Origin: Arenicella chitinivorans | GTDB taxonomy: Bacteria > Pseudomonadota > Gammaproteobacteria > Arenicellales > Arenicellaceae | Direction of reading: 5' to 3' | NCBI RefSeq assembly: GCF_014651515.1 | Contig: NZ_BMXA01000001.1 | Location: 62,001 to 126,000, forward strand | DNA length: 64,000 nucleotides | In this document: one piece after another, positions 828 through 8,433 of the stretch | Position numbering within the stretch: position 1 is the first letter of the stretch | Layout: every line of letters starts with the position of its first letter | Translations under genes and position numbers: made by a program | The notes under the pieces: generated by a model | Told to the model about the DNA's origin: nothing | The model's database searches: none | The model's input: the letters and a program-made list of their open reading frames with translations, nothing else

Positions 828-1181
828 ATCTACAACTCAACCAATGACCCTAGACACCAACCTACCCGGTGTTCGAATAGCAAATTAAGTGCCAACTGGA
901 CGTATGTTTATAAAAGTGCTTTGTAAACAAGATGTTAATCAACGTTTGCGCAAATGAGTGTAAAACACCGCACCGCGTTGCTTGCGTCTTTTTTGGGCAA
1001 GCTGCACTCAACGAGTGCGCTCAAAATCGGTAATCCATCTTTAGGCCTGGCGTGACCTGACACGTTGTGATTGAGAAATCCGATGATTGTTATCTAAATA
1101 ATGAATCGAATTACAGATACTAATCTAAAAAATTTGTTCTATAGTTTCATTGCAAACCTTCAACACGCAATGGAGCGACAC
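828..1181. other. intergenic region between two divergent genes
   Basis: About 350 bases with no convincing gene. It must hold the promoters of the minus-strand hypothetical gene and of katG. I see no clear sigma70 pair and no obvious OxyR-like repeat by eye. In-frame starts upstream of base 1182 exist for katG (ATG at 1101 and 1170), but the Shine-Dalgarno GGAG at 1172-1175 favours 1182. Confidence 0.4.
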
Positions 1182-3395
1182 ATGTTTAAACCCTATAAAT
1201 CTCTGTTCACGGCACTTTCTTTGTCGTTGACGATGCTGGCCGCATCTCAAAACGCGTATGCGACCGGTCCGGCTAAGTCCCCACAATTTTGGTGGCCGGA
1301 AAAATTAGACCTCACACCGCTACGCCAACATTCCGTTGAATCGAATCCGTATGGCGCCGATTTTGACTACGCGGCGGAATTTGCCACGATTGACCTCGAC
1401 CAACTGAAGAAGGAGATCGAAGCGGTGATGACCGACTCACAAGACTGGTGGCCTGCGGACTACGGCCACTATGGTCCATTTTTCATCCGCATGGCTTGGC
1501 ACAGTGCGGGAACCTATCGTGTACTTGATGGGCGCGGTGGTGCCGGCGGTGGCCAACAGCGTTTTGAACCGTTGAACAGCTGGCCGGACAACGTCAATTT
1601 GGATAAAGCACGTCGTTTGTTGTGGCCAATCAAGCAAAAATATGGGCGCAAGCTGTCGTGGGCAGACTTGATGGTGTTGACCGGTAATGTGGCGTTGGAA
1701 TCAATGGGCTTTACGACGTTTGGATTCGCAGGTGGCCGCACCGATGACTGGGAACCTGATTTGGTTTACTGGGGACCGGAAACCAAGTTTCTGGATGACA
1801 AGCGCTACTCCAAAGGACGTCAGCTCGAAAAGCCGCTGGCCGCGGTGCAGATGGGATTGATTTACGTCAACCCGGAAGGCCCTAACGGTAACCACGATCC
1901 AATTTCTGCGGCGCAGGACATCCGGGAGACGTTTGGCCGGATGGCGATGAACGATGAAGAAACGGTCGCCTTGATCGCCGGTGGTCACACGTTTGGTAAA
2001 GCCCATGGTGCCGTGAAAGCTGATTGTGTGGGCGCAGAGCCGTCTGCAGCCGAGATCGAAGAGCAGGGTTTTGGTTGGAAAAACAAGTGTGGTACTGGTA
2101 AAGGCGCTGATACCATGACCAGCGGGCTGGAGGGAGCATGGTCCGCAAATCCGATAGCGTGGAGTTCGCAGTATTTAGATAACCTGTTTGCGTTTGAATG
2201 GGTGCAAGCTAAGAGTCCTGCTGGCGCAGTACAGTGGATCCCAGCGGATGGCCAAGCGTCGATGCTGGTGCCAGACGCGCATGACAAGACCAAGCGACAC
2301 GCGCCGATCATGTTCACAACAGATCTCTCGCTTAAAATGGATCCAAGCTATCGTGAGATCGCTCAACGATTCCAAAAGGATCCGAAAGCGTTCGAACTTG
2401 CCTTTGCTAAAGCGTGGTTCAAGCTAACGCATCGCGACATGGGGCCGCGTGCGCGGTATGTTGGCTCCGAAGTGCCAACCGAAGCGTTGATTTGGCAGGA
2501 CCCAATTCCTGCCACAGACCATCCTTTGGTGAATGCGAGTCAAGTAGCTGACATCAAAGCAGACATACTGAAGTCAGGCCTCAGCGTATCGGAGTTGGTG
2601 CGCACAGCTTGGGCGTCGGCAGCCAGCTATCGCGGTACAGACATGCGCGGTGGTACCGATGGTGGGCGCCTGCGTCTCGCGCCACAGAAAGACTGGGCCG
2701 TAAATAATCCGCAGGAACTGTCAAAAGTGTTGTCGACGTTGAGTGAGATTCGGTCTGATTTCAATAAACGTGGTAATGGCGGAACGCAAATCTCAATGGC
2801 CGACATGATCGTACTGGCAGGTGCAGCCGCAATCGAAAAGGCCGCGGAGCAGGCTGGCACGACGGTTTCCGTACCATTTTTGCCCGGCCGAGGTGATGCA
2901 ACAGTGGAGCAAACTGACGTAGCATCATTTGCGCTCCTGGAGCCAGCAGCCGATGGGTTCCGCAACTACTATGGCGCTTCGAGTGCCTTGTCGCCGGCTG
3001 AGATGCTAGTTGATCGCGCTAATCTACTGACCTTAACTGTGCCTGAAATGACGGTCTTAGTGGGAGGCTTGCGAGCGCTAAATGCCAACACACAGGCGTC
3101 TCAATTGGGTGTGCTGACAGATCGTCCTGGTGCGCTGAGTAACGACTTCTTTGTGAACTTGCTTGATATGGGGACAGCGTGGCAAAAGTCCGATAAAACC
3201 AACGGCGTTTACGACGGCGTCGATCGCAAAACTGGCGAACTGCGTTGGCAAGCTACCCCGGTGGATCTCGTGTTTGGCTCAAATTCTGAGCTCAGAGCGA
3301 TTGCGGAGGTATACGGTGCTGGCGATGCAGATAATCAGTTCACTAAGGACTTCGTAAGTGCATGGACCAAAGTAATGAATCTTGGAAGATTCTAG
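1182..3395 (+). CDS. katG: catalase-peroxidase with an export signal
   Basis: Bifunctional haem catalase-peroxidase, which removes hydrogen peroxide. With the start at ATG 1182 (GGAG six bases upstream) the protein is 737 residues, the usual KatG length plus a leader. Residues 1-28 form a signal peptide (basic start, long Leu/Ser/Ala core, ending near NAYA), so the enzyme is probably periplasmic, like E. coli KatP. The distal triad Arg103, Trp106 and His107 lies in [11 protein letters not shown]. The Met-Tyr-Trp crosslink partners are Tyr228 and Met254. The proximal haem ligand His269 lies in [10 protein letters not shown]. The C-terminal, non-catalytic half is complete. The gene is followed by a strong terminator and is probably monocistronic. 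Confidence 0.95.
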
Positions 3396-3422
3396 GCCTA
3401 CGAAATAAGTCTATAAAAATTG

Positions 3423-3457
3423 CGGCCCTTTCTTGTAGCAGACGAGAAAGGGCCGTT
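3423..3457 (+). terminator. Rho-independent terminator after katG
   Basis: A perfect 11-bp stem, CGGCCCTTTCT pairing with AGAAAGGGCCG around an 11-base loop, is followed by TTTCACTTT. It lies about 30 bases after the katG stop codon and insulates katG from the roadblock/BLUF locus. Confidence 0.85.
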
Positions 3458-3612
3458 TCACTTTATAGGTGCGTTCAATGATTGGGTTAGAAAAAAATCG
3501 CGTACGTGTCTTTTTCTCGACAAACCCCGTTAAGTTGGTGTATGTTGATCGTCTGGTAGTGAGGGCTGCCAATCTACAATTTTGAGAAAAAGTCATACCT
3601 TGGGGGGTATCT

Positions 3613-3972
3613 ATGGCAAACATTGAATCAAGTCTTAAGGAACTTTTAGCCATTGACGGCGCATTGGGCGCTTGTATCGTGGATTACAAATCCGGCATGT
3701 CGCTCGGCCACAGTGGCGGCGGTGTGGATTTAGAACTCGCGGCCGCAGGCAACTCTGAAGTGGTTAAAGCCAAAATGGCGACCATGAAGTCTCTGGGTAT
3801 TAAGGGTGAGATTGAAGACATTTTGATCACGCTGAAAGACCAGCTTCACATTATTCGTCCAACGGCAAGTCATAACGGTTTATTCATTTATCTTGTTCTG
3901 GATCGAAACAAATCTAACCTGGCCCTAGCTCGCCGCAAAGTCCACTCGATTGAAGAGGACTTAGAAGTTTAG
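3613..3972 (+). CDS. roadblock/LC7-type small protein A, module 1
   Basis: A 119-residue protein with the roadblock/LC7 pattern: an amphipathic first helix, then IDGALGACIVDYKSGMSLG (strand-turn-strand around a DY-x-x-G turn), a helix, and a C-terminal 'IYLVLDR...NLALARRKV' strand and helix. Such proteins dimerise and commonly act as scaffolds or activators of Ras-like GTPases (MglB, CvnB). The start is ATG 3613 behind a GGGGGG Shine-Dalgarno. By eye it is about 75% identical over its whole length to the gene at 6046-6405, so the two arose by duplication. It is followed by a hairpin-bearing gap of about 220 bases and then the first BLUF gene. The family call is by pattern; the GTPase partnership is inferred from the neighbouring module. 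Confidence 0.8.
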   Translation: MANIESSLKELLAIDGALGACIVDYKSGMSLGHSGGGVDLELAAAGNSEVVKAKMATMKSLGIKGEIEDILITLKDQLHIIRPTASHNGLFIYLVLDRNKSNLALARRKVHSIEEDLEV

Positions 3973-4099
3973 CAATACACGAGTAGGGGTGTTGCTGATG
4001 ATTGCCGGTGCAACAAAGTGCACCTTGGCTTAGGGAAACTGACTCGATCCCCAAAGCTAACGCGAAGTCTGTAACACACTCCGAATTATTTCTACTACT

Positions 4100-4118
4100 G
4101 AACCTGTTTTACAGGTTC
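4100..4118 (+). repeat. perfect hairpin between roadblock A and BLUF 1
   Basis: GAACCTG, loop TTTTA, CAGGTTC: a 7-bp perfect stem in the 218-base gap between the first roadblock gene and the first BLUF gene. No T-run follows, so it may be an RNA stability element or a weak attenuator rather than a terminator. A different hairpin occupies the equivalent gap in module 2. Confidence 0.5.
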
Positions 4119-4190
4119 ATGTAACTAAGTGATTAGTATTACGCCATGACCATCCGACAACGACGGCGTGATTCAGAAGGGGAAACAAAA

Positions 4191-4934
4191 GTGAGATGTA
4201 TTACATATATTAGTAAGGTAACGTGTCGACGTAACGGGGCTACTATTCCAGTTGGGCTGTCAGAAATTTATCGTATTTCAAGAGCGAGAAATACACAGAA
4301 CCAGATCACAGGCATGCTGACCTACCGTGGTGGATACTATCTGGGAGTACTTGAAGGCAGCACCACTAAACTGGATGAACTGCTGGTGAAATTAAACTGC
4401 GACAAACGCCATGAGAACTTCACTGTGTTGGTTGATACGGTGGCGAGAAAACGCTACTTCTCCGATTGGCATATGAAGCTTGCCGAGTCACTGAGTCTTG
4501 ACGCTGGTTTCACCAAGTTCATGGCGGATCAGTCGAATCAGGTTGCGCAGTTAACTGCGGGTCAATTGACGCTACTTAATCAGTTCTATGACGTGTCTGA
4601 GATTGCCGCTGACCATAAAGCATCGTATCGAGATCGAACTTTGAAGTTAATTCGCTGGCCAGATTTCAGCGTGATTAATCAATCTCCAGAATTGGTCGAA
4701 TTATGCGCACTATTGACTAATCGACCACAGCGATACCAGGACTTATTGGCACTGAACCAAGTATCGAGCAGTGAAAAACTGGACCAATATCTGGATAAAT
4801 TCGATTCGCTTGGCTTGCTGAAAACAGTTACACCACAGGCTGAGAGTGGAGTCGCACCGCTGGAGAAATCGGCGCTTCGTTTTATTTATAAGATGAAACG
4901 TTTTCTGGGTGCGACACAGGGCAGCCGGATATGA
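4191..4934 (+). CDS. BLUF-domain protein with C-terminal winged-helix-like domain, module 1 (Gln-less)
   Basis: The protein is 247 residues if translation starts at GTG 4191, which has AGGGGA seven to eight bases upstream; an ATG 15 codons earlier lacks such a site. Residues 1-100 are a BLUF flavin-binding domain: Tyr6 in ITYIS, Asn34 in RNTQNQITG, an LEG motif at 54-56, and Trp93/Met95 in FSDWHM. The conserved light-switching glutamine (AppA Gln63) is replaced by Gly52 in YYLGVLEG, so the normal BLUF photocycle is not expected. Residues about 150-230 look like a winged-helix segment beginning at RWPDFS. It is a paralogue of 6709-7476, aligning without gaps through the core. Unlike module 2, no GTPase gene follows it. 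Confidence 0.88.
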   Translation: MRCITYISKVTCRRNGATIPVGLSEIYRISRARNTQNQITGMLTYRGGYYLGVLEGSTTKLDELLVKLNCDKRHENFTVLVDTVARKRYFSDWHMKLAESLSLDAGFTKFMADQSNQVAQLTAGQLTLLNQFYDVSEIAADHKASYRDRTLKLIRWPDFSVINQSPELVELCALLTNRPQRYQDLLALNQVSSSEKLDQYLDKFDSLGLLKTVTPQAESGVAPLEKSALRFIYKMKRFLGATQGSRI

Positions 4935-5068
4935 TTGGGATCTATTCATAGCGGCTTGGGCGTCAATGGGTTTCCCAGTTCGCGCTGGATAGAGATGGTT
5001 TGGAATCGGCAAGGCTCAGTTGGTTGTGTGAGCTCTGAGTTCTCAGGGAATAAAGGCGGGTAGGACAA

Positions 5069-5485
5069 ATGAGTAACCTTGATACTGGGTTCAGTGATGA
5101 ACTCAAATCGCGGCTGGAACACATGTTGAAATCATTGTGTATAGCTAGGAAAGAAATATTTCTGGCCAGCGTATGCACGGTAGACGGGTTCAACATTCGG
5201 TCCGTGACATCCAGCGCTAGAACGACTGAAGTGGATAAACTGGCGGCCATGGCCAGCACCATAGTGTCGTTAAGCGCCGCGTCAGCTCAGCAGTTACTGG
5301 CGCTCCCGTCGACTTTTACCACCATTGAAACTGAGGGCGGTAATATCTTATTTTTGCTTACTAAGTTGCTCGACAAGGAATGCGTATTGACGTTAGCCGT
5401 AAACAACCAAATGCAACTTGCTAATGCGCGGTATGAAGCCATGCGGCTGGCAAATGCCATTTCGGAATTGAAAAGCGTGATGTAA
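5069..5485 (+). CDS. roadblock/LC7-type protein B, module 1
   Basis: A 138-residue protein of the second roadblock type in this locus. Residues 30-60 give FLASVCTVDGFNIRS, the strand-'DG'-strand signature, followed by a helix with KLAAMASTIVSLSAASAQQ and a strand with GGNILFLLTK. It is clearly related to 8035-8433, which has the same KLAAM-S-S-T-I-x-x-L-S motif, and only distantly to the roadblock A proteins. It follows BLUF 1 after 134 bases, exactly where module 2 has the GTPase plus roadblock B. It starts at ATG 5069 with AGG six bases upstream. It probably dimerises and partners a Ras-like GTPase. With no GTPase in its own module, it may share the GTPase of module 2 (inference). Confidence 0.78.
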   Translation: MSNLDTGFSDELKSRLEHMLKSLCIARKEIFLASVCTVDGFNIRSVTSSARTTEVDKLAAMASTIVSLSAASAQQLLALPSTFTTIETEGGNILFLLTKLLDKECVLTLAVNNQMQLANARYEAMRLANAISELKSVM

Positions 5486-6045
5486 AGCAGATTTCGGGTC
5501 ACGGGGATAGAGCGAGATCAGCCGATTTGTAGTCGAACCTTGCATGATGCGCCGCTGGCGACGATCCGGGTGACCCATGTTAACGACCTACGGTTGTACT
5601 CCGCGTTAAATACGGCACCGTCCGTGCTTCAACGTGCAGTTATTTAGGTAGGACGCACCGTGATCAGCAACGTTACGTCAGCTCGATTAAATTGCAGCAT
5701 GTCAGTGGCGTGTTCGCCTACGGCTTCGATTCGGTGCCTATAAATTGGTTGATTTGTACGTCTTCCATTGGCCTGTCTATTTTTTCGACACTGGTTGATT
5801 TGTCCAACGCAAAAAGACAATTCGGACATAGTCAAGCTGTCTAGTATTTTGATAATAAGGATTTATGCGAACTATTTGCGTTTTCAAGCTGAAAATACCC
5901 GTGATTGTGTTAAATCACTGTATTTATTGGAGAAAAAACTTTACATAATGTATTTTTGTGTATAATCACGCCGCATAGGCAGGGACCGCCGACTTAGGGT
6001 GGGATTGGATCAAATTTTTATTTCAAATTTAGAGGAACAACTGAT
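5486..6045. other. 560-base gap between the two light-sensing modules
   Basis: No coding region is convincing here; the short open frames start without ribosome sites and have no protein-like composition. The left part probably includes the end of transcription of module 1, although no clean terminator is visible. An 11-base direct repeat, GGTTGATTTGT, occurs at 5747-5757 and 5793-5803. The right end holds the promoter of module 2. Confidence 0.5.
5940..5966 (+). promoter_or_regulatory. putative sigma70 promoter of module 2
   Basis: A perfect TATAAT at 5961-5966 is preceded by TTTACA at 5940-5945. The 15-base spacer is short, so the true -35 contact may be shifted or an activator may assist. 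It lies about 75 bases upstream of the roadblock A start at 6046. Confidence 0.5.
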
Positions 6046-6405
6046 ATGGCAAATATTGACGGTAGCTTGAATGGGTTAATGGAAATCGACGGCGCGATGG
6101 GCGCATGCATCGTGGATTACACAACGGGAATGTCACTGGGCACAATTGGTTCTGGTGTGGATTTGGAGCTGGCTGCAGCAGGTAATACTGAAGTAGTAAA
6201 AGCTAAAATGGATACGATGAAGTCGCTAGGCATTGAGGGTGGAATCGAAGATATTTTGATTACCCTGGATACTCAACTGCATATCATTAAACCATCGCTG
6301 AATAACACTGGCCTGTTCATTTACCTAGTTTTGGACAAAGGCAAATCAAACCTTGCTTTGGCTCGTCGTAAAGTACAGAGCATCGACGACGCGCTAGAAG
6401 TTTAG
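6046..6405 (+). CDS. roadblock/LC7-type small protein A, module 2
   Basis: A 119-residue roadblock/LC7-type protein of the same length as its paralogue at 3613-3972, with identical core motifs (IDGA-x-GACIVDY, GVDLELAAAGN, NLALARRKV). The differences are scattered and mostly conservative, which suggests both copies are under selection. The start is ATG 6046 behind GAGGAAC. It sits first in module 2, downstream of a strong -10 box, and is followed by a hairpin with a short T-run that could let it be made in excess over the receptor and GTPase. Its expected role is a dimeric scaffold or regulator of the GTPase encoded at 7481-8017 (inference from MglB and CvnB relatives). Confidence 0.8.
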   Translation: MANIDGSLNGLMEIDGAMGACIVDYTTGMSLGTIGSGVDLELAAAGNTEVVKAKMDTMKSLGIEGGIEDILITLDTQLHIIKPSLNNTGLFIYLVLDKGKSNLALARRKVQSIDDALEV

Positions 6406-6708
6406 TCGTCTAAACCTGCTCGGCAAGTAACTCGGTGTCACACCGTCAAGCACTTGTCGAGTTCCGGTTAGTACGCCGGAATTTTGAATTCGTCCGCAAC
6501 ACAGCAGAATGCTCGGTTACGATTTACGACCGAACATAATACAGGGTCACTGGTAGGTTAACGCTTGTGTGTGCGGCTAGGGGTAGTGTGTAGATTTCCC
6601 CTGATTTCATACAAATGCATGATTTCGTGAATGCCAGGAGCGGCGAACTGGTCAATGGAAGGCGAGATCATACTATGGCAATAGTTACCTATTCAGGGGG
6701 TGGATCAA
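6406..6708. other. leader region between roadblock A and BLUF 2
   Basis: About 300 bases without a gene. An imperfect stem lies at 6419-6461 (CTCGGCAAGT with ACTTGTCGAG), then the hairpin described separately at 6462-6485. The right end carries the AGGGGG ribosome site at 6695-6700. Gaps of this kind separate roadblock A from BLUF in both modules. Confidence 0.4.
6462..6485 (+). terminator. possible attenuator or partial terminator after roadblock A, module 2
   Basis: TTCCGG and CCGGAA pair around an 8-base loop and are followed by TTTT. The stem is only six base pairs, so partial rather than full termination is more likely. This would fit higher expression of the first gene than of the rest. 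Confidence 0.45.
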
Positions 6709-7476
6709 TTGAAATGTATTATGTACATAAGCCGAGTTCGGGTGCGTAAAGATGGAGTCGTAATTCCTGTCGGTCTGTCTGACATTTACGCACGCTCGCG
6801 AAAACGGAATGCCGAACGCGGTATTTCATCAGTGATGTCGTTTCGAAAGGCGCACTACTTACAAATCATTGAAGGCAAGGTCGATGACGTCGATGCGTTA
6901 TTTGCAAATATCTGTGATGATCCTAGGCATACCGATGTTGAAAAGCTCCTTGATTGTTCAATTTCTGACCGGTTTTTTCCTAAATGGAGTTTCAAACTCT
7001 TGGAGTCCGTTCAAAAGGCACCCGAGTTCATTCGGTTTGTTAATCGGCACAACCGAGAGATTGGAGACTTTGATGCGCACCAAACAGAGCTTCTTCAATT
7101 ATTCTATGATTTGAGTAAACCAAGGGTAACCGCCTGCGATTACTCGGGCAAAGAATTGATGCTGCGCGGCTGGCCCGACTTTTCTGAAATCAGTCAGTCT
7201 CCAACGATCATTGAGCTTTGTGCACGACTCACTAAGCGACCACACACTTACGAGAGCTTGGTTGACGGCGGGGATTTTGGAACGCGTAGACAAATCGACG
7301 TAATCCTACAAAAGCTAGATCGCCTTGAGCTTCTAAACGCATTTGCTTACGAGGAAGATGCGCAACTGGCGACGGCGTCGAGTGGCGCTGCGGCAGTGAC
7401 CACGGCAAATATTGAGGCGTCGCGTTCCAATGGCTTTTATGGGAAAATGCGAGAGTTTCTATTCAAATCAAGGTAA
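6709..7476 (+). CDS. BLUF-domain photoreceptor with C-terminal winged-helix-like domain, module 2
   Basis: A 255-residue blue-light sensor using FAD. The start is probably TTG 6709: AGGGGG at 6695-6700 lies eight bases upstream, and the resulting N-terminus MKCIMYIS aligns residue for residue with MRCITYIS of BLUF 1; an in-frame GTG at 6700 overlaps the ribosome site. The full photoactive set is present: Tyr6, Asn34, Gln52 in HYLQIIEG and Trp93 in FPKWSF. Phe95 replaces the usual Met. Residues about 150-235 form a winged-helix-like segment (RGWPDFSEI..., then [13 protein letters not shown]). The gene is four bases upstream of the GTPase start, so they are almost certainly co-translated. Light probably changes how the tail contacts the roadblock/GTPase partners (inference). 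Confidence 0.9.
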
Positions 7477-7480
7477 CAGC

Positions 7481-8017
7481 ATGGAATATCGAAAGCTCGC
7501 CATCGTAGGCGAAGTCGGCGCGGGTAAGACGCAGCTGGTCAAAACCTTAAGTGAGATCAGTCCACTGGAGACTGAAGCTGAATCCACTATCGACATTGGT
7601 AAAAAATACACCACTGTGGGTATCGATTACGGTCGAATTTCGCTCAGCTCGGACACCGCACTTGGTTTGTACGGAGTCCCTGGTCAATCACGCTACTCAT
7701 TTTTATGGAATTTCGTGAACACCTCGCTCTGGGGGTTATTGATCCTGCTCAAGTACGGTGAGACACCGGATTACGATAATCTGGATGAGTTGTTGACGTT
7801 CTTCGCACCGCATGAACAACGCACCACGTGCGTGGTTGCCGTGACGCACTGCGAAGATGCCGGCGACGGTGGCATGACCGCTTTGAATAGTGAAATCCAG
7901 GCCTTATTAGAACACCATAAAATTGTGGCGCCGATTATCCAAATCGACCCGCGTGACAAGAACTCGGCGATGTCGATTTTGCATATCTTTAATGCAATCA
8001 ATCAATATGCTGCATAA
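7481..8017 (+). CDS. Ras-like small GTPase, CvnD/MglA-like
   Basis: A 178-residue small GTPase. The P-loop GEVGAGKT is at residues 10-17, switch I threonines at 44-45, the G3 motif reads YGVPGQ (65-69) where eukaryotic Ras has D-x-x-G-Q, and the G4-like motif THCED is at 122-126. The 'G-x-P-G-Q' form is typical of bacterial conservon-type GTPases. Translation starts at ATG 7481, just after the BLUF 2 stop, with AAGG overlapping that stop; a start further upstream would overlap BLUF 2. The next gene, roadblock B, follows after 17 bases. It should cycle between GTP and GDP forms, controlled by the roadblock proteins and perhaps by light through BLUF 2. It is the only GTPase of the locus. Confidence 0.88.
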
Positions 8018-8034
8018 CCATTAGAATTTTGACA

Positions 8035-8433
8035 ATGTCTGATAAAACGATCCCCGTAAAACCAGAGTTGCTGGATGAAATCAAGAGGCTCTGTGAAGAG
8101 AACCGCGAAATTGCACTCATCAGTTTATGTACGACAGATGGATTTTCCATCAAGTCATTTGCCACGCGAGAATTGAGCGCTGAAGCTGATAAGTTGGCTG
8201 CCATGAGTAGCACCATTTCGGCCTTAAGTGAGTCTGCTGCTCAACAGGTTCTGAAAGGTGAGTTCAATGTCACTATCGTGGAATCAGGAGAGGGAAATAT
8301 GCTGTTTGTACGGACATCATATTTGGGTTTGCCGTGCGTTGTGACGGTGGCCGCTCGCGTCAATTTGTCTTTAGCCAAGGCGCGATTTGCTACTAAACGC
8401 ATGGCGGAAGTCATCCAAAAAATCGAGGCCTAG
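8035..8433 (+). CDS. roadblock/LC7-type protein B, module 2
   Basis: A 132-residue roadblock protein, paralogue of 5069-5485. Residues 23-48 read as helix, then IALISLCTTDGFSIKS, followed by KLAAMSSTISALSESAAQQ and a strand with EGNMLFVRTSY. ATG 8035 is chosen over the TTG two codons earlier. No strong ribosome site is visible, so coupling to the GTPase stop at 8015-8017 is likely. The gene ends the module and is followed by a clear terminator. Together with roadblock A it gives the locus two distinct roadblock types per module, which could form homo- or heterodimers around the GTPase (inference). Confidence 0.8.
   Translation: MSDKTIPVKPELLDEIKRLCEENREIALISLCTTDGFSIKSFATRELSAEADKLAAMSSTISALSESAAQQVLKGEFNVTIVESGEGNMLFVRTSYLGLPCVVTVAARVNLSLAKARFATKRMAEVIQKIEA

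Follow-up and report, generated by a model that had tools for sequence, protein, structure and literature searches.

What becomes of a BLUF protein that has lost its photoactive glutamine? The question is raised by a 64,000-nucleotide stretch of Arenicella chitinivorans DNA, here called the window, which carries two BLUF genes. The original prediction, made from the sequence alone, was that the upstream protein, BLUF1 (4191..4934, + strand), has Gly at the position of AppA Gln63 while its paralog BLUF2 (6700..7476, +) has Gln. It offered three roles for BLUF1: a flavin-binding but light-blind domain, a redox sensor, or a decoy acting with BLUF2.

The BLUF1 open reading frame is real, with a GTG start at 4191 and AGGGG upstream; a longer reading is possible from an in-frame ATG at 4146. 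The protein consists of a Gly-type BLUF domain, spanning residues 1 to about 98-100, and a C-terminal domain at about 145-213. Its first part scored 73.6 bits with the Pfam BLUF profile (PF04940), for which the cut-off is 25. An AlphaFold2 model based on the family alignment (mean pLDDT 79, mostly 80-95 over the BLUF domain) predicted a BLUF fold with Z of 14-15 to OaPAC, PixD and AppA, covering about 95 residues at 1.3-1.6 Å, and Z of 12-13 to Tll0078 and BlsA. Both the profile match and the predicted fold place BLUF1 in the BLUF domain family. The matches in these structure comparisons were taken up by the BLUF part and not by the C-terminal domain, for which no sequence relatives were found in the PDB.

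Alignments to PDB chains placed GYYLGVLEG of BLUF1 opposite GVFFQWLEG of AppA, with Gly52 at Gln63, and the codons agree: GGA (4344..4346, +) replaces CAA/CAG in BLUF1, and BLUF2 has CAA. The central claim of the original prediction was therefore confirmed, as was the retention of Tyr6, Asn34 and Trp93, which stand at AppA Tyr21, Asn45 and Trp104. For BLUF2 the Gln itself was correct, but its number is 52 only when counted from an in-frame TTG at 6709 and becomes 55 from the GTG at 6700. Misalignment at position 52 was ruled out by the PDB alignments and by the LEG motif just after it, which fixes the register. A single-base sequencing error, which the original prediction had itself considered, was also ruled out, since GGA is two base changes away from CAA or CAG and Gly is also found in a second species. 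BLUF1 thus has several features of a canonical photoreceptor, namely Tyr6, the flavin-holding Asn34, and Trp93 and Met95, but it should not be called a canonical BLUF photoreceptor because the defining Gln is missing. BLUF2 (Pfam BLUF, 73.4 bits) has Phe at the position of AppA Met106 and Ser in place of a nearly invariant Gly, so that, despite the Gln, a light response of BLUF2 cannot be taken for granted.

The second species is another member of Arenicella (genome G005), which contains the closest homologue of BLUF1 among about 100-110 related genomes. This homologue is 42% identical and has Gly encoded by GGC, contrary to the Gln that the original prediction had considered possible in orthologues. 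A tree built from 50 long BLUF proteins recovered the two Gly-types as sisters with 99/99 support, and their separate branches are long, at 0.71 and 0.86 changes per column. Gln is found in every other long BLUF protein of Arenicella and in the Psychrobacter loci fetched, and both genomes with a Gly-type also contain a Gln-type. Across a sample of 134 distinct general BLUF domains, position 52 was Gln in 131, His in 3 and Gly in none; the sample was drawn mostly from classes and phyla and partly from best-scoring matches, in which rarer residues may be under-counted. The Gly-type is known from two sequences only, and the identities and counts given here hold for the genomes examined. His stands at the Gln position in three short BLUF proteins (L013, L028 and L255), and in L028 the flavin-holding Asn is replaced as well, by Tyr.

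Apart from the lost Gln, the flavin pocket is little altered. We compared 17 positions that we take to match the pocket or core residues of AppA. Both Gly-types keep Y6, S8, N34, L43, Y50, D71, R73, W93 and M95, and the only unusual residues of the pair among the 17 positions were at the Gln52 site and, additionally in G005, Asn for His74. The BLUF domains of the two Gly-types are 55% identical, compared with 36% for their C-terminal domains, so the domain that lacks the key residue is the better conserved one. The BLUF domain of BLUF1 is 34-52% identical to its Gln-type relatives. Cys12 is common to the Gly pair only and is not known as a flavin contact. This pattern of conservation supports part of the light-blind proposal, pointing to a retained and probably flavin-binding pocket without the canonical light switch.

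The genes around BLUF1 and BLUF2 suggest what such a domain might control. The window contains two tandem cassettes of unequal content, one without a GTPase (3613-5485) and one with a GTPase (6046-8433). The first comprises protein A (3613..3972, +; 119 aa, from a highly conserved family, with 71-82% identity to members encoded ahead of BLUF genes), BLUF1 and a roadblock/LC7 protein B (5069..5485, +; Pfam Robl_LC7, 24.9 bits against a cut-off of 23). The second comprises a protein A that is 75% identical to the first copy (6046..6405, +), BLUF2, a Ras-like GTPase (7484..8017, +) with a GEVGAGKT P-loop and a GVPGQ motif, scoring 22.2 bits against the Ras cut-off of 21.6, and a roadblock-type protein B (8029..8433, +), assigned by the family alignment with a Robl_LC7 match below cut-off (E 0.0015). 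Protein A, a BLUF protein with a C-terminal 'WPDF' domain, the Ras-like GTPase and roadblock-type protein B form a four-gene set whose order is shared by Arenicella, many Psychrobacter loci and some other gammaproteobacteria. These loci were found by a contig search with protein A as query, and the coverage of Psychrobacter is limited to them; a contig search with BLUF1 alone gave no match. We found no published description of a BLUF-GTPase-roadblock operon in the open-access literature, searched for BLUF together with roadblock, GTPase, Psychrobacter or Arenicella.

The interval between BLUF1 and protein B in cassette 1 is 134 bases long and contains no GTPase gene. A tblastn search over 3401-6100 gave no real match to a GTPase remnant, and no second GTPase of this family was found elsewhere in the genome, leaving the cassette 2 copy as the only one. 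G005 has a complete Gly cassette, GTPase included, and carries its Gln cassette, with a GTPase of its own, on another contig. The B proteins of the two Gly cassettes are 50% identical, compared with 35-47% to others (35-45% for the cassette 1 copy), so the BLUF protein and protein B of the Gly cassette seem to have diverged together. Protein A is weakly suggested to be roadblock-like by similarity to LAMTOR5 in 5 of 11 family members (best E 0.00067), with no match for the cassette 1 copy. Proteins A and B did not match each other when their profiles were compared, and searches of the PDB returned no sequence relatives for protein A and none for the GTPase at E 0.01.

Several arrangements depart from the four-gene order. 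Elsewhere in the A. chitinivorans genome, a lone third protein A (L270:6834-7226, at about 761,870 of G000:C1) adjoins a response regulator/histidine kinase pair and a TerC-like gene, with no BLUF, GTPase or roadblock B gene alongside. In a Marinicella locus (L121), two distinct open reading frames upstream of the GTPase encode the BLUF domain (145 aa) and the C-terminal domain (114 aa), as though a single protein had been divided or the fusion had never taken place. The C-terminal 'WP.F' domain also occurs without BLUF in other Arenicella proteins, at L059:1495-2850 (-) and in similar proteins of 450-463 aa in four genomes (G008, G011, G015 and G016), which may serve as further inputs to switches of this kind. 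A contig labelled Eubacteriales (L083) carries a BLUF cassette nearly identical to that of Psychrobacter glacincola and is probably misbinned.

BLUF1 is not the only sensor of this kind that lacks a photoactive residue. Related cassettes, with genes for the GTPase, B and A and a sensor gene upstream, were found in Zhongshania, Gilvimarinus, Oceanobacter, Parathalassolituus and other gammaproteobacteria. Their sensors are full-length homologues of BLUF1 by profile comparison (244 columns, E 2.4e-34), and most exceed the Pfam BLUF cut-off. The photoactive Tyr is replaced by Cys in 12 of 41 rows and the Gln by Asn, Leu or Ile in 5 of 41, counts that are not independent, as the rows are related to each other. 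Sensors with Cys for Tyr, some of them also with Asn, Leu or Ile for Gln, are those of L110, L120, L125, L133, L136, L111, L107, L146, L128, L140 and L124. One sensor in which Cys replaces Tyr and Asn replaces Gln was predicted to adopt a BLUF fold, with Z of 15.8 to AppA. The Gly clade and the Cys-type group are apart in the tree. Provided that their common ancestor possessed both Tyr and Gln, which the other BLUF proteins make likely, photoactive residues were thus lost on at least two separate occasions. We tentatively propose, at somewhat less than an even chance, that this is a BLUF-GTPase-roadblock switch whose light-sensing inputs have on more than one occasion become light-independent flavin (or apo) inputs by loss of Gln or Tyr with the fold kept. 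BLUF1 would then be a member of a family of blind BLUF proteins that keeps its pocket, maybe with redox or constitutive signalling.

For BLUF1 itself, the explanation we favour, with a probability slightly better than even, is that it is an old and selectively kept BLUF-type input paralog for a Ras-like GTPase/roadblock switch, probably flavin-binding, without the reversible 10-15 nm red shift that canonical BLUF photoreceptors show in blue light, and giving a light-independent signal. Without Gln, the BLUF hydrogen-bond switch that makes up the red-shifted state would not form, while flavin would still be bound in the otherwise intact pocket. Removal of Gln stops formation of the signalling state in BLUF (PMC3915823), and AppA Gln63Leu is photoinactive (PMC4780082). 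The original prediction was in agreement with these mutants in calling Gln essential, but it left out of account that substitutions at this site can mimic the lit state, as recounted for AppA Q63E and Slr1694 Q50A in PMC6695109. BLUF1 may thus give the switch a fixed state, its output possibly being that of a lit-mimic, beside the Gln paralog. In G005, the Gly-type would act on its own GTPase; in A. chitinivorans, BLUF1 would act via protein B on the shared cassette 2 GTPase, or without a GTPase. Several points weigh against this explanation. The Gly-type is represented by just two sequences, and LOV receptors that lack their Gln are still able to signal (PMC9098866). BlsA Q51A protein is insoluble (PMC6695109), so loss of Gln could disturb flavin binding itself, and the loss of the GTPase from cassette 1 could be early decay.

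The same facts bear on the alternatives. That cassette 1 is a decaying relic, having lost its Gln and its GTPase, is suggested by a GTPase gone without remnant and a fast-evolving protein B; we regard this as very improbable, given that all three cassette 1 reading frames are open, that Gly lies on a branch common with G005, whose whole cassette is intact, and that the pocket has kept its residues across a deep split. The single GTPase also bears on the suggestion that BLUF1 is a decoy or dimer partner modulating BLUF2 and that GTPase. BLUF proteins are known to form dimers and larger oligomers, the cassettes are in tandem, and the only GTPase of the family is in the BLUF2 cassette, which is circumstantial support for this part of the original prediction. 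We nevertheless consider it quite unlikely, since in G005 the Gly-type comes with a GTPase of its own and is not on the contig of the Gln-type, and since the C-terminal domain of BLUF1 resembles that of BLUF2 (42% identity) little more than those of the other Arenicella proteins compared (33-41%).

Two further readings turn on the chemistry of the flavin. As a redox sensor, BLUF1 would have a flavin potential or radical stability shifted by the absence of Gln, and its Tyr/Trp/Met pocket would report flavin reduction to the switch. The retention of Tyr, Trp and Met though Gln is gone would fit, as would the neutral flavin semiquinone that exists for a few nanoseconds in Slr1694 Q50A (an unpublished result cited in PMC3915823); immediately upstream, at 1101-3395, is a gene for a KatG catalase-peroxidase, perhaps by coincidence. 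We found neither a redox partner nor a redox-specific residue, Cys12 not being known to touch the flavin, and judge this reading unlikely, though not negligible. BLUF1 might instead still sense light non-canonically, through flavin photoreduction or with water in place of Gln. Signalling persists in natural LOV receptors without Gln, with water as its probable route (PMC9098866); absence of the Gln is therefore no proof of light-blindness, and the electron donor Tyr6 is present in both Gly-types. In BLUF, however, Gln is the switch itself, and its removal prevents the signalling state (PMC3915823), which leaves light sensing of this kind a small chance.

The favoured explanation, a light-independent input to a GTPase/roadblock switch, sets BLUF1 beside several known systems. 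Small Ras-like GTPases next to roadblock proteins are also found in MglA-MglB and in the Cvn conservons, the latter likewise encoding a sensor. The putative switch resembles these modules in its parts; in an MglA/MglB-type pairing, the cassette 2 GTPase is just over the Ras cut-off and its B below the Robl_LC7 cut-off, while the cassette 1 B is over it and has no GTPase. The sensor here is a BLUF protein, in contrast to the histidine kinase or RomR/Frz of those modules, and the operon hints at a path by which blue light could act on a bacterial Ras-like switch, of which the open-access literature searched held no description. A survey of blue-light sensors recognised BLUF by its Tyr-Gln pair with a search pattern ending in Q (PMC4844311), so natural BLUF proteins without Gln fall outside such counts.

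AppA, Slr1694/PixD, Tll0078, OaPAC and BlsA share with BLUF1 the BLUF fold and the pocket Tyr, Asn, Trp and Met; unlike them, BLUF1 has Gly for the photoactive Gln, another C-terminal domain and linkage to GTPase/roadblock genes. The Gln-less LOV receptors (PMC9098866) are, like BLUF1, natural members of a flavin-photoreceptor family without the key Gln, but LOV forms a Cys adduct and still signals, whereas BLUF forms none. A natural Gln-to-Gly BLUF protein with Tyr, Trp and Met kept offers a test of what Gln does in signalling, and the pairing of Gln- and Gly-type cassettes in one genome is a ready-made control. In AppA Q63E, AppA Gln63Leu and Slr1694 Q50A the same residue is replaced, and the proteins are photoinactive or locked in a pseudo-lit state; those mutants were engineered, whereas Gly52 of BLUF1 is natural and kept across two species.
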